Positions 11,609 through 58,290 of a stretch of 64,000 bases of DNA are shown in pieces; position 1 is the stretch's first letter, and each line of letters begins with the position of its first letter. The DNA is from Phytohabitans suffuscus. GTDB lineage: Bacteria > Actinomycetota > Actinomycetes > Mycobacteriales > Micromonosporaceae. Under the pieces are notes generated by a model. The model worked only from the letters and a program-made list of their open reading frames with translations. It was not told the origin of the DNA and made no database searches. The stretch is taken from assembly GCF_011764565.1 (NCBI RefSeq), contig NZ_AP022871.1:8246320-8310319 (forward strand). Reading direction: 5' to 3'. Position numbers and translations under genes: made by a program.

Positions 11609-11613
11609 GGTTT

Positions 11614-11665
11614 GCCTGGTGCCTGGTGCCTGGTGCCTGGTGCCTGGTGCCTGGTGCCTGGTGCC
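11614..11665 (+). repeat. 7-bp tandem repeat array (GCCTGGT x7)
   Basis: Seven perfect copies of GCCTGGT plus a partial one begin six bases after the stop codon of the Asp-box gene. It may slip during replication; no function is evident. Confidence 0.95.
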
Positions 11666-13303: not shown

Positions 13304-13433
13304 CGCACGCCGCCCGCCCGGCACCGTCTCACCGTCGCCGCTCGCGTCGTCCCAGGCCGGGCCGGTCCCGGCCGTGCGTCCGGGCCCAGGCCCGCCTGGC
13401 CTGTCCGGGCCGCGCTTGCCGGCTCAGGCCCGC

Positions 13434-13815
13434 CTGTCGTCGTCGTTCGTCTGGTCCCGGGCCTGGCTGTCGCGGTCGTTGGCGTCGTCTTGGACCCGGC
13501 TGTCGTGGTCGTTGGCTTCGTTTCGGGCCGGGTCGTCGCGGCTGTTCGTGTCGTCTCGGGCCTGGTTGTCGCGGTCGTTCGTTTGGTCTTGGGCCGGGTT
13601 GTGGCGGCTGTTCGTGTCGTCTCGGGCTTGGCTGCTGTGGTCGTTCGTCTGGTTTCGGGCCGAGTTGTCGCGGTTGTTCGTGTCGTGCCGGGCTTGGCCG
13701 TTGTGGTCGTTCGTTTGGTTTCGGGCCTGGCTGTTGTGGTCGTTCGTGTTGGCCCGGCGGGTCCGGCTGTCGTGGCTGTTCGTGTCGTGGCGGTTCGTGT
13801 CGTGCCGGGGCCTGC
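13434..13815. repeat. 33-bp degenerate tandem repeat array (about 11 units) between response regulator and kinase genes
   Basis: Units start every 33 bases (13467, 13500, 13533, 13566, 13599, 13632, 13665, 13698, 13731 and so on) and share a core like TCGTTCGTYTGGTTTCGGG. The plus strand is G/T-rich, unlike the flanking genes. Both strands are open for long stretches because the repeat lacks stops: on the minus strand it would encode an 11-residue Thr/Arg/Pro/Lys-rich unit. There is no ribosome binding site or signal, so I treat it as non-coding. The whole 13304-13936 gap has no supported gene. Confidence 0.85.
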
Positions 13816-26672: not shown

Positions 26673-28223
26673 ATGGTCGGCAGATGTCTCGCGGTGCTGT
26701 TCGGCGCCACGCTCGCGGCGGCGGGCCTGGTGGTGGTCGCGCCGCCGGCCCAGGCGATCCCGCCGCCGCCGGGCTACCCGATCCGGGGCGTCGACGTCTC
26801 GTACTTCCAGGGGCCCTCGCTCGACTGGGCCGCGCTGGCCCGGGGCGGCGCGCGGTTCGCCTACATCCGGGCCAGCGAGCAGGACGGGCGCCCGGTGCCC
26901 AACAACAACCCCGACCCCTTCTTCGCCACCAACCGGGCCCGCGCCCGCGCCGGCGGCCTGTACACCGGGGCGTACCACCGCGCCCGCCCCGACCTGAGCG
27001 GCGGCCGGCAGCAGGCCGGGGTGCTGCTCGGCTTCGCGCCGTACACCGCGGACGGGCTCAGCCTGCCGCCGATGCTCGACATCGAGTGGCCCCGGGCCGA
27101 GTGGGGCCTGGACGACTGCTTCGACATGACGCCGGCCCAGCTCGTGGCCTGGGTGCGGGACTTCGTCGACGAGGTCGCGGTGCGCACCGGCCGCCAGGCC
27201 ATGGTCTACACGAACACCAACTGGTGGAACCCGTGCACCGGCGCCAGCACCGCCTTCGCGGCCAGCCCGCTCTTCGTCGCCAACTACTCGCAGAACCCGC
27301 CGCCGCTGCCCGCCGGCTGGACCTCGTTCGCCCTCTGGCAGCACGCCGCCGGCGCCCCGATCCCCGGTTCCGACTGGGCCTCGCCCGACCTCGACGTGTT
27401 CAACGGCGGCGACGCGGCGCTCGGCCAGCTCGCCGCCGGCCCCGCGACGAGCCTCCTGGCGACCGTCAACAACCGGTACGTCACCGCCGAGAACGCCGGC
27501 GCCGCCCCGCTGGTCGCCAACCGCGCCGCCATCGGCGCCTGGGAGCAGTTCGACCAGGTCGACGCGGGCGGGGGTTTCGTCGCGTTCCGCTCGCGGGTCA
27601 ACGGCCGGTACGTCACCGCGGAGAACGCCGGCGCCGCGCCGCTGGTCGCCAACCGGGTCGCGGTCGGCGCCTGGGAGAGGTTCCGGCCGGTCACGAACGC
27701 AGACGGTACGGTCAGCCTGCTCGCCAACGCCAACAACCGGTACGTGACGGCCGAGAACGCGGGCGCGGCGCCGCTGGTCGCCAACCGCACCGCGATCGGA
27801 GTGTGGGAGAAGTTCCGCGCCGTCCGGCCGCCGCCCCTGGTCAACCTGCTGGCCAACGCCAACCGCCGCTACGTCAGCGCCGCCGCGGGCGCCTCCGCGC
27901 TGGTCGCCAACGGCACCGTCGCCGGCACCTCCGAGCAGTTCGACCAGGTCGACGCGGGCGGGGGTTTCGTCGCGTTCCGCTCGCGGGTCAACGGCCGGTA
28001 CGTCACCGCGGAGAACGCCGGCGCCGCGCCGCTGGTCGCCAACCGCGTCGCGGTCGGCCCGTGGGAACGGTTCGCGGTCGTCACCAACGCCGACGGCACG
28101 GTGAGCCTGCGCGCCAACGCCAACAACCGGTACGTCTCCGCCGAGAACGCCGGCGCCGCCCCGCTCATCGCCAACCGCACCGCCATCGGCGCCTGGGAGA
28201 AGTTCTTCCGCCTGGTCACCTGA
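26673..28223 (+). CDS. Secreted GH25 lysozyme with two C-terminal trefoil (fascin-like) repeat domains
   Basis: A 516-residue secreted protein. After the signal peptide (cleavage near AQA-IP), residues 30-250 form a GH25 muramidase: GVDVSYFQG, FAYIRASEQ and the catalytic pair in MLDIEWP. Two domains of three ~43-residue repeats follow (NRYVTAENAGAAPLVANR, WEKF), like fascin/actin-crosslinking beta-trefoils, probably for cell-wall or sugar binding. GGGAGG precedes ATG 26673. A 113-bp stretch is identical at 27543-27655 and 27933-28045, one domain apart, so the domains were duplicated or homogenised recently. Confidence 0.88.
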   Translation: MVGRCLAVLFGATLAAAGLVVVAPPAQAIPPPPGYPIRGVDVSYFQGPSLDWAALARGGARFAYIRASEQDGRPVPNNNPDPFFATNRARARAGGLYTGAYHRARPDLSGGRQQAGVLLGFAPYTADGLSLPPMLDIEWPRAEWGLDDCFDMTPAQLVAWVRDFVDEVAVRTGRQAMVYTNTNWWNPCTGASTAFAASPLFVANYSQNPPPLPAGWTSFALWQHAAGAPIPGSDWASPDLDVFNGGDAALGQLAAGPATSLLATVNNRYVTAENAGAAPLVANRAAIGAWEQFDQVDAGGGFVAFRSRVNGRYVTAENAGAAPLVANRVAVGAWERFRPVTNADGTVSLLANANNRYVTAENAGAAPLVANRTAIGVWEKFRAVRPPPLVNLLANANRRYVSAAAGASALVANGTVAGTSEQFDQVDAGGGFVAFRSRVNGRYVTAENAGAAPLVANRVAVGPWERFAVVTNADGTVSLRANANNRYVSAENAGAAPLIANRTAIGAWEKFFRLVT

Positions 28224-53441: not shown

Positions 53442-53536
53442 GGGGTTGGCGAAGGTGCCGATCGGATCCTCCCGTCCGGTGCGTCACACGGCACCCCGTG
53501 GGTGGGTGCCTCTTCGCTAGTCTGGCCTCCCGGTTG

Positions 53537-54857: not shown

Positions 54858-55871
54858 GTGACGGTCGACGAGGGGCGCAGGATCACCATCACGGCGATCG
54901 CGCGCGAGGCCGGCGTGTCGGTGCCGACCGTCTCGCGCGTGCTCAACGGGCGCTCGGACGTGGCGCCGCAGACCCGCGAGCGGGTCGAGGAGCTGCTGCG
55001 CCGCCACGGGTACCGGCGCCGCGCGGCCCGCCCCCGGGTCAGCGCGAGCCTCATCGACCTGGTCTTCAACGACCTGGACAGCCCGTGGGCCGTGGAAATC
55101 ATCCGAGGTGTCGAGGACGTGGCGCACGCGGCCGGCGTCGGCACCGTCGTCTCCGCGATCCACCGCCGCACCGCCTCCACCCGGCAGTGGCTGCAGAACC
55201 TGCGCACCCGCGCGACCGACGGCGTGGTGCTGGTCGCCAGCGACCTGGCCCCGCCGGTGCACGCCGAGCTGCGCCGGCTCAACGTGCCGATGGTGCTGGT
55301 CGACCCGGCCGGCGTGCCGACCCTCGACATCCCGACCATCGGCGCCACCAACTGGACCGGCGGGCTGCGCGCCACCGAGCACCTGCTCTCGCTGGGCCAC
55401 GAGCGGATCGGCTTCATCGCCGGCAACCCGCAGATGCTGTGCAGCCGGGCCCGGCTCGACGGCTACCGGGCCGCGCTGGAGGCGGCCGGCCTGCCGATGC
55501 ACGAGGAGCTGATCCAGCCCGGCGACTTCTACCACGAGTCCGGCCTGGAGGGGACCAAGGCGCTGCTCGCGCTCGACAACCCGCCGACCGCGATCTTCGC
55601 CTCCAGCGACCAGATGGCGTTCGGGGCGTACGAGGCGGTGCGCCAGCGCGGCCTGCGGGTCCCCGACGACGTGAGCGTGGTGGGCTTCGACGACCTGCCC
55701 GAGGCGCGCTGGTCCTCGCCGCCGCTGACCACGATCCGCCAGCCCCTCGCCGAGATGGGGCTGCTCGCGGCGCGCACCGTGCTGCGGCTGGCCCAGGGCG
55801 AGGCGGTGGAGACGCCGCGGGTCGAGCTGGCGACCGACCTCGTGGTCCGCGACAGCAGCAAGGCCCGATAG
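54858..55871 (+). CDS. LacI-family regulator of the xylan cluster
   Basis: A 337-residue regulator: ITITAIAREAGVSVPTVSRVLNGRSDV (residues 8-34) is the LacI HTH with its hinge, and the rest is a periplasmic-binding-protein-like effector domain ending VVRDSSKAR. It probably represses the GH3, importer and GH10 promoters until xylo-oligosaccharides or xylose bind. AAGGAG sits six bases before GTG 54858. It diverges from the GH10 gene, and a perfect palindrome after its stop (55880-55905) is the terminator. Confidence 0.93.
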   Translation: MTVDEGRRITITAIAREAGVSVPTVSRVLNGRSDVAPQTRERVEELLRRHGYRRRAARPRVSASLIDLVFNDLDSPWAVEIIRGVEDVAHAAGVGTVVSAIHRRTASTRQWLQNLRTRATDGVVLVASDLAPPVHAELRRLNVPMVLVDPAGVPTLDIPTIGATNWTGGLRATEHLLSLGHERIGFIAGNPQMLCSRARLDGYRAALEAAGLPMHEELIQPGDFYHESGLEGTKALLALDNPPTAIFASSDQMAFGAYEAVRQRGLRVPDDVSVVGFDDLPEARWSSPPLTTIRQPLAEMGLLAARTVLRLAQGEAVETPRVELATDLVVRDSSKAR

Positions 55872-56140: not shown

Positions 56141-56254
56141 CCCAGCCCGGCCGATCCGCCGCGCATATCGGGTTTGTCATGCCTTGGATGGGCGAAAGCC
56201 CATACGTTAGAAGCGCGGGCGACCGGGTACTTCGGGGGCCCGGCTACTTCGTGG

Positions 56255-56596
56255 CTGGCCTTGCTGTGGGGCCTTGGTTGCTGCGGGGCTGGCCTTGCTG
56301 TGGGGGCTTGGCTTGCTGTGGGGCTTGGCATGCTCCGTGGCTGGCCTTGCTGCGGGGCTTGGCTTGCCGCGGGGCTTGGCTTGCTATGGGGCTTGCCTTG
56401 CTGCGGGCCTGGCTACATCGGGCTTGGTTACGTCGTGGCTTGGCTACGTGAGGGGCTTTGCTACGTCGCGGCCTGGCCACGTGAGGGCTTGCCGCTTGGG
56501 GCTTGGCTCCGTCGTGGCTTGGCTCCGTCGTGGCCTGGCTACGTGGGGGCTCGGCTACGTGGGGGCTGGCCACTTGGGGGCCTGGTTACTTCGTTG
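56255..56596. repeat. G/T-rich 16-17 bp tandem repeat array (about 20 units)
   Basis: Units such as CTTGGCTCCGTCGTGG, CTTGGCTTGCTGTGGGG and CCTGGCTACGTGGGGG run head to tail. The plus strand is strongly G/T-biased. Several frames are open through it; a Gly/Leu/Trp-rich one ends in ATGA at 56614-56617, but I see no independent coding signal. It fills most of the 55872-56631 gap. Confidence 0.85.
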
Positions 56597-56631
56597 ACCG
56601 GCACGAGGGTGACATGACAGAGGGGGCATCG

Positions 56632-56949
56632 ATGCGACTCGACGACGACGACATCACCGGCACCGGCGGCAGGGGCGAGGGCCCGGCGGACGGTGGCGCG
56701 AACCCGATGGGCCGCGACGGCGGCGCGGACGGCACCGCCGGTGGCGAAGGCCCCGCGGACGGCGGCGCGAACCCGACGGGGCGCGACGGCGGCGCCGACG
56801 GCGGCGCAGGTGAGGGCCCGGCCGACGGCGGGGCCAACCCGATGGGCCGTGACGGCGGCGCGGACGGCGGCGCCGGTGAAGGCCCGGCCGATGGCGGCGC
56901 GAACCCGATGGGCCGCGACGGCGGCGCCGACGGCGGCGCGAAACGGTGA
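56632..56949 (+). CDS. Repeat peptide, putative modified-peptide precursor coupled to a JmjC oxygenase
   Basis: A 105-residue acidic peptide. [15 protein letters not shown] may be a leader (1-15). Four near-identical units then follow: residues 16-38, 39-60, 61-82 and 83-105, each built on [17 protein letters not shown] (the second unit has Thr for Met). It has no Cys, no Ser and no aromatic residue, and ends KR. AGAGGGGG lies five bases before ATG 56632; ATG 56614, also with a ribosome binding site, would add MTEGAS. The stop overlaps the oxygenase GTG as GTGA, so the two are made together. Function is not known; a substrate of the oxygenase is my inference. Confidence 0.75.
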
Positions 56950-58290
56950 CCAAGGACGCCGGGACGGCGGGGACCCGGGTCACGGCGGGCGCCGCGACGG
57001 TGGAGGCCGCGACGACGGTGGACAGCGCGATCGCGGGGGGCGGCGTGGCGGCGGGGGGTGCGCCGGGTGGGTCCGCCCGCCCGGCGCTCGCGCGCTGCGT
57101 GGCGGTCGAGCCCGCCAAGTTCGCCGGCGCGTACTGGGGCCGGGCCCCGCTGCTGTCCCGGGCCGCCGACCTGGGCGGCCCGGACGGTTTCCGCGACCTG
57201 CTGAGCCCGGCCGACGCCGACGAGCTGCTGAGCCGGCGGGGCCTGCGCACCCCGTTCCTGCGCGTGGCCAGGGACGGCGAGGTGCTGCCCGCGTACCGCT
57301 TCGCCGGCGGTGGCGGGGCCGGCGCCGAGGTGCCCGACCAGGTGCTCGACGAACGGGTCCTCGCCCTCTACGCGGACGGTGCCACCCTGGTGCTCCAGGG
57401 CCTGCACCGGCTCTGGCCGCCGCTGGTCGACCTCGCCCGCGAGCTGGGCGGCCAGCTCGGGCAGCCGCTGCAGGTCAACGCGTACCTCACGCCCGCCGCC
57501 AGCCAGGGCTTCGCCACCCACTACGACACCCACGACGTCTTCGTGCTCCAGGTCGACGGCCGCAAGCGGTGGCGCGTACACGAGCCGGTCCTGCCCGACC
57601 CCTGGAACGCCAGCCGTGGGGCGGCCGTGCCGACGAGGTGGCCGCCGTCGCCGAGGGCGCGCCCGCGATCGACGAGGTACTGGAGCCCGGCGACGCGCTG
57701 TACCTGCCGCGTGGCTGGCTGCACAGCGCCGCCGCCCAGGACGGACCGTCGCTGCACCTCACGGTGGGGGTCAAGGCGCTGACCAGGTACGCGCTCGTGG
57801 AGGCCCTGCTGGAGCTGGCCGCCGAGGACCGCCGGCTGCGGGCCACCCTGCCGTACGGCCTGGACCCCGCCGACGCCGAACAGGTGGAGCCGGAGCTGAC
57901 CGGGACCGTCGAGGCCCTGCGCGACTGGCTCTCGACCGCCGCCCCGACCGCGGTGGCCGAGCGGCTCCGCGCCCGCCTGTGGCCCGCCGCCCGCCCGGCC
58001 CCCTGCGCCCCCTGGCTCAGGCCGCGGCGATCGCGGGGCTGAGCCCGGACGACCGCGTCACGGTCCGCGCCGGCCTGCGGTGGCGCCTGGCACCCGGCGG
58101 CGACGACCGCGTGGCCCTGCACGTCTTCGACCGCACCCTGACCCTCCCGGCCGGCTGCGTGCCAGCCCTGCGCGTGCTCCTGACCGGCCGCGCGACCCGG
58201 GTGGGCGACCTGCCCGGCCTGGACACCGACGACGACCGCCTGGTCCTGGCCCGCCGCCTCCTCCGCGAAGCCATCCTGACCCCCACCTGA
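56946..58290 (+). CDS. JmjC/cupin_4-type 2-oxoglutarate oxygenase, two missing bases
   Basis: About 448 residues after correction. A 45-residue Ala/Gly/Thr-rich extension precedes a fold like ribosomal oxygenases (YcfD/MINA): [34 protein letters not shown] holds the iron-binding His and Asp (HYD), and [11 protein letters not shown] holds the second His. A winged-helix-like C-terminus ends [14 protein letters not shown]. The frame breaks at about 57625 (GCGGCC_GTGCC) and 58003 (GGCCCCC_TGCG), each one base. Relatives hydroxylate Arg or His side chains of proteins; the coupled repeat peptide is the obvious candidate substrate. Confidence 0.82.

Follow-up and report, generated by a model that had tools for sequence, protein, structure and literature searches.

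The question raised by this locus is why a small and highly repetitive peptide should be encoded immediately upstream of an iron-dependent oxygenase. In Phytohabitans suffuscus, a gene for a peptide with four near-identical repeat units overlaps the start of a gene for an oxygenase of the JmjC/cupin type, within a 64,000-nucleotide stretch of contig NZ_AP022871.1 (positions 8,246,320 to 8,310,319), hereafter the window, whose own numbering is used throughout. We propose that the two genes form a pair resembling those of ribosomally synthesised and post-translationally modified peptides (RiPPs), in which the oxygenase would bind a leader segment of the peptide and oxidise many of its repeat aspartate (Asp) residues, most likely by beta-hydroxylation; from sequence conservation and analogy to known enzymes, we consider this reading somewhat probable. 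The recurrence of the pair across the phylum, together with the retention of Asp in every peptide, points to an undescribed system that modifies the aspartates of its own dedicated peptide.

The link between peptide and enzyme is carried by their joint occurrence. We assembled 109 orthologue loci besides the window, from the same taxonomic order (some genomes are counted twice, and two loci end before the position of the peptide), and a repeat peptide lies directly upstream of the JmjC gene in all 107 that could be tested, usually overlapping it or separated from it by 15 bases or fewer. Only one of these peptides is frame-disrupted (L015), and another is strongly diverged (L030). A peptide search across 61 relatives gave a match in 23 genomes, every time beside a JmjC gene; the peptide was thus found in 23 of the 33 JmjC-positive and in none of the 28 JmjC-negative genomes, and in the ten JmjC-positive genomes without a match the repeats have mostly diverged beyond the reach of that search. 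In the congener G004 both genes are missing, and the flanks found at 55857 and 58621 of the window are there 140 bp apart. This joint presence and absence, including an empty site, indicates that the cassette is a discrete unit which is whole or absent within one genus. A first-pass annotation of this DNA saw in the peptide a dedicated partner of the oxygenase, and adjacency and joint absence bear this out. The outcome that would have spoken against it, a repeat ORF missing or broken in frame next to close homologues of the enzyme, did not come about, a single locus of the 107 (L015) having a disrupted frame. The loci present, as expected of a RiPP, a gene-encoded candidate precursor adjoining an enzyme of a modifying type. 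About 100 further loci were inspected beyond the orthologue set, and a profile built on 32 orthologues was used in a class-wide survey of 395 genomes and a phylum-wide survey of 396 genomes. The architecture of peptide and JmjC gene recurs across the Actinomycetota, and a strict filter for Asp repeats was passed at 180 of 215 positions upstream of JmjC genes, compared with none of 492 control positions.

The precursor peptide gene of the window, assigned from sequence, the peptide search and a codon-position test, begins with ATG and occupies 56632 to 56949 of the forward strand, on which all parts of the cassette lie. A putative ribosome-binding site, GAGGGGG (56620 to 56626), is proposed from its spacing, five bases 5' of the ATG. 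The 105 residues comprise an acidic leader-like segment (56632 to 56676) and four repeat units of 23, 22, 22 and 23 residues (56677 to 56745, 56746 to 56811, 56812 to 56877 and 56878 to 56946), and the TGA stop shares the bases GTGA (56946 to 56949) with the GTG start of the oxygenase gene. The length, the near-identical units, the complete lack of Cys, Ser and aromatic residues and the overlap had all been noted in the first-pass annotation, and each agrees with the sequence. When repeat units of the same locus were compared (470 unit pairs), differences at codon positions 1, 2 and 3 numbered 362, 334 and 2565, and this third-position excess indicates purifying selection at the protein level. 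A chance or non-coding repeat is ruled out by the codon-position bias together with the control positions. No family model in Pfam or NCBIfam covers the repeat peptide, and the visible annotation of homologues reads 'hypothetical protein' followed by 'cupin domain-containing protein'. Neither a description of the peptide nor its repeat strings was found in the searchable literature, although an earlier description elsewhere in the literature is possible. Directly 5' of the peptide gene, at 56253 to 56594, are GC-rich tandem repeats with periods of 16-17 bp and 51/79 bp (GGGCTTGGCTTGCTGCGG type), which fall within the segment absent from G004.

Comparison of the repeats across clades indicates which residue is the probable target. 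Among 185 distinct peptide cores Asp is present in every one, with a median of 12 per core, followed by Gly and Ala (99%), Pro and Ser (92%), Thr (87%), Glu (85%), His (68%), Arg (54%) and Asn (45%). None of Arg, Asn, His, Glu, Gln, Thr, Ser and Pro occurs in all cores, and no reactive side chain other than that of Asp is shared by every peptide. The universality of Asp, with the other reactive residues missing somewhere, argues for Asp as the target and not Arg, Asn or Pro. Of the four residues named as possible targets in the first-pass annotation, Asp is thus supported, whereas Arg, Asn and Pro fail as general targets, each being missing from the repeats of whole clades. Within the repeats, Arg is largely confined to Phytohabitans, and the most divergent repeats consist mainly of D with G, A, T or S.

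The beginning of the peptide is conserved in a different manner. The motif L-x-D-[DE]-D-I-x-T, which is the family consensus of the leader-like segment, is found in 35 of 42 and in 44 of 79 peptides of two sets, against 0.6 in shuffled sequences; the misses are mostly truncations or one-letter departures in the first set, and in the second include a few families with true loss. A conserved N-terminal segment set apart from a variable core, a feature by which RiPP precursors are recognised, is thereby evident at the level of sequence, with loss in some clades, and is consistent with the leader function that had been attributed to this part of the peptide.

The repeat type varies with the enzyme clade, while the JmjC partner is constant. 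On a FastTree phylogeny of 137 enzymes, in which several deep forks are weakly supported, the distribution of the two main repeat classes is explained by 3 and 5 changes, compared with 44 and 37 in shuffles. Some clades other than that of the window have long repeat arrays, and the most divergent clade carries repeats such as DADGTDADGTD, DGDASDASDGD or DTTDSTDTDTTD. Deep JmjC relatives (L169, L179, L180 and L225) have other small peptides, or none was found beside them, and because these depart, we do not claim the Asp-repeat rule for all JmjC_2 proteins. Several unusual upstream peptides were also seen. Streptomyces-like JmjC paralogues (L175, L176, L178) follow a near-invariant short peptide, MDPIEVEVEDLAEVTSRDITAGGDNDGTDSSSDFI, in which a GGDxDGTD motif appears again. 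Other odd precursors have DGTDQGVxGGTxGPRDA repeats (L226), PTEDDENLDAPGEHSQDTGDE repeats (L211) or a non-repeat sequence of the form DDPELxGADL..GPTxEPGA (L159, L161), and in L008 and L035 the precursor is much enlarged by DRGVERGADAGADVGA repeats amid the usual units. On a Streptomyces clavuligerus plasmid (L233, 3772 to 3918) the peptide MDDKKTSLEPDEIEVIPPVSTPDFVIADNDPSDPPIAIADPDPFDPVI lies 5' of a JmjC gene, and genes for an S9 peptidase and an ATP-binding cassette (ABC) transporter are nearby; the peptide of L170, ICDPDPSDDCWIVCNPNYCY, is related to it but contains Cys, and a transporter-like gene lies downstream. Cyanobacterial JmjC homologues on plasmids of Pseudanabaena (L235) and Dolichospermum (L234, 2652 to 2867) have as neighbours either a LanM synthetase or a small peptide that contains MSDEDI and a Gly-Gly motif.

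By profile and by predicted structure, the enzyme is most like proteins of the NO66/MINA53/YcfD fold. An intact orthologue matches PF08007 (JmjC_2) with an E-value of 1.5e-29, and a profile search placed NO66 at the top (1e-36), followed by MINA53, YxbC and YcfD, with a weak match in the C-terminal region. An AlphaFold2 model of the P. maris protein, with a predicted local distance difference test (pLDDT) score of 74, gave NO66 as the best Foldseek hit, with MINA53 and YcfD among the top hits; against the overall ribosomal-oxygenase (ROX) fold, with its C-terminal winged-helix region, the probability was 1.00, the E-value 1e-26, the template modelling (TM) score about 0.5 and the root-mean-square deviation 10 A, values that come from a 74-pLDDT model in which domain packing is unreliable. 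The iron ligands of the HxD...H site, H148, D150 and H216, as well as K163, are invariant in all 32 sequences; the spacing of K163 is that of the 2-oxoglutarate lysine of NO66 structures, of which it is the putative counterpart. The JmjC_2 domain, the profile search and Foldseek hence agree with the earlier assignment to the cupin_4/JmjC ribosomal-oxygenase type. The best matches in sequence and fold (PDB 4ccn, 4bxf and 4ccl, for NO66, MINA53 and YcfD) share the HxD...H site, but they differ in acting on His or Arg of ribosomal proteins and in having no co-encoded peptide.

The surroundings of the pair are sparse. In Micromonosporaceae, clustering of neighbouring genes returned core-genome genes only (DUF72-like and FtsK-like, named from sequence) and no recurring protease or exporter. 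Outside this family a third gene is usually found 3' of the JmjC gene, encoding a Suc_Fer-like ferredoxin of thioredoxin fold (PF06999, E-value 1e-17 for one member); tblastn detected it in 95 loci of the set (within L120-L228), about 1.0-1.3 kb past the JmjC start, and in none of the 37 Micromonosporaceae genomes examined, at any position. A classical biosynthetic cluster is rejected, as clustering gave only core-genome genes or, outside Micromonosporaceae, the Suc_Fer-like gene. Neither an ATP-grasp ligase nor a methyltransferase like protein L-isoaspartyl methyltransferase (PIMT), as in graspetides, imiditides and pamtides, recurs in the neighbour clusters found. Enzymes of lanthipeptide, thiopeptide or lasso peptide synthesis do not recur adjacent to the pair either, and the window peptide has neither Cys nor Ser, so that the earlier view that such chemistry is disfavoured holds, as does the observation that no protease or exporter is adjacent. 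We keep the label RiPP-like because neither leader removal nor export is accounted for at these loci; general proteases could act on the leader.

Oxidation of histones and ribosomal proteins is what JmjC enzymes are chiefly known for. In the RiPP pathways of the searchable literature they appear only as single tailoring steps. BipG and PbsQ hydroxylate the side chain of ornithine (Orn) in a biphenomycin-type pathway (PMC12707348, PMC12257519), and resemble the present enzyme as JmjC/cupin Fe(II)/2-oxoglutarate hydroxylases that are encoded with a ribosomal precursor and act on its side chain. They differ in that their target is a single Orn of a short, aromatic, repeat-free core, in that they act after a multinuclear non-heme iron-dependent oxidative enzyme (MNIO) and an arginase, and in that they are not the sole enzymes of their multi-gene cluster. 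The oxygenase SmaO, of the SmaO/SmaX pair in a group 18 graspetide cluster, reportedly beta-hydroxylates Asp of the precursor (Kim et al. 2025, as related in PMC13097080), and is alike in that chemistry; it differs in that it is not the sole enzyme of its pathway and Asp repeats are not its substrate. JmjC_2 (PF08007) proteins with folds like the RiPP recognition element (RRE), and bacterial homologues in RiPP-like contexts, are described in PMC12710340; the accessible part of that paper names fish and algal fusions and holds no Asp-repeat precursor. Those RRE-like folds would fit a C-terminal domain that binds the peptide. The present system is set apart by a JmjC enzyme whose sole dedicated partner is seemingly a repetitive Asp-rich peptide, conserved phylum-wide and present or absent together with the enzyme. 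If Asp is hydroxylated, the enzyme would be an iterative, leader-guided protein hydroxylase open to a simple two-gene assay; it would also yield a new hydroxylated biopolymer of acidic character and could lead to a physiological role as yet unexplored.

We envisage the following series of steps. The precursor would consist of an acidic N-terminal recognition segment (LxDDDI) and Asp-rich repeats, and a stand-alone JmjC Fe(II)/2-oxoglutarate enzyme, whose translation would be coupled to that of the precursor, would bind the leader and add oxygen to the repeat Asp residues many times per peptide, most likely at the beta-carbon. Where encoded, the Suc_Fer-like ferredoxin may serve as an electron donor or hold the iron in its reduced state. 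We expect a soluble poly-hydroxyaspartyl peptide as the product, one that plausibly binds metal, as a guess from its acidity, and that might stay in the cell, a guess from the lack of a protease, an exporter and a signal peptide alongside the pair. More tentatively, and with somewhat less than even confidence, the pairs might represent a phylum-wide peptide class in which a single JmjC oxygenase makes poly-beta-hydroxyaspartyl peptides with at least a dozen oxygen insertions each, serving as an intracellular metal-binding or oxygen- or 2-oxoglutarate-responsive polymer and not as a secreted antibiotic. Several observations weigh against beta-hydroxylation of Asp in a leader-guided RiPP-like pair. 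In the enzyme's closest relatives of solved structure the hydroxylated residue is His or Arg and not Asp; no maturation protease or exporter is linked to the pair, which would be uncommon were the product a secreted RiPP; the DDDI leader is lacking in some clades (e.g. MSEQNLEGPADGG); Gly and Ala come close to Asp in universality, so that backbone chemistry at Gly is compatible with the conservation; and the oxygenase frame is broken as sequenced in this genome.

Since Gly and Ala occur in 99% of the cores and flank nearly every Asp, the oxidised residue could be Ala, or else Gly, which would be cleaved or alpha-hydroxylated; repeats poor in Gly or free of it nevertheless exist (DADAADADAADADASD, and ADDDDDTTDAKDD in L194), whereas none lacks Asp, and we regard this reading as very improbable. 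The same substrate and enzyme may instead yield another outcome at Asp, such as desaturation, cross-linking, oxidative cleavage or a hydroxylation that prepares Asp-Gly for further reaction, by way of aspartimide or otherwise. Asp-Gly is the sequence most prone to succinimide formation, and the repeats of the window family are rich in it, but divergent clades lose most Asp-Gly steps (DADAVDADAVD), and no second enzyme, be it a methyltransferase, an ATP-grasp enzyme or an HD-domain oxygenase, recurs beside the pair, the Suc_Fer-like protein apart. Although 2-oxoglutarate enzymes of RiPP pathways also cyclise and cleave, as titles cited in PMC12636437 and PMC13060819 indicate, such an outcome appears unlikely. 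The kinship of the enzyme with ribosomal oxygenases, in sequence and in fold, also allows that it really acts on another molecule, for example on a ribosomal protein as YcfD, MINA53 and NO66 do, and that the acidic, disordered peptide binds it unmodified, to inhibit it, to buffer its cofactor or to bind metal. Near-identical repeats, conserved spacing and a phylum-wide N-terminal motif have, however, the look of an iteratively modified substrate, and a ribosomal-protein substrate is unlikely because the enzyme is absent jointly with the peptide, which it would leave unexplained; we hold a non-substrate role of the peptide to be quite unlikely.

The broken frame concerns this strain only. The first-pass annotation was right about the type of oxygenase gene that follows the peptide, but missed that the gene lies in three frames separated by two one-base deletions in C-runs. 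The N-terminal piece (56946 to 57600, from the GTG at 56946, a later start near 57019 being possible) carries the HxD iron-ligand motif (THYDTHD); the middle piece (57601 to 58003), placed in the next frame by sequence, JmjC_2 match and congener comparison, carries the third iron ligand; and the C-terminal piece (58004 to 58290), in the third frame, contains the region that matches the NO66 C-terminal domain weakly, by sequence and profile search. The PF08007 match is divided between two of the three pieces. The frameshifts are at 57598 to 57602 and 57999 to 58004, where each C-run is one base shorter than in three congeners, whose oxygenase genes are all intact, in one frame of about 420 residues. 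Decay to a pseudogene would account for the two frameshifts, but the peptide gene is intact with conserved repeats, and over about 16 kb of synteny with the congeners, from which the frameshift rate was judged, further one-base deletions in C- or G-runs relative to all three occur at 53500, 63112 and 63166. The completeness of this single-contig genome, 93%, is low for a closed contig, and together these features suggest an indel-prone assembly. Assembly error is more likely than decay, because the congener genes are intact, and we consider a decaying system in this strain somewhat unlikely.

Elsewhere in the window there are other tandem repeats. An array of 33/66 bp that looks similar to the one before the peptide gene occupies 13423 to 13788 (CTCGGGCCTGGCTGTCGTGGTCGTTCG), the perfect 7-bp repeat TGCCTGG is present in 7.6 copies at 11613 to 11665, and a large repeat of 132/390 bp at 27467 to 28205 is coding in appearance.
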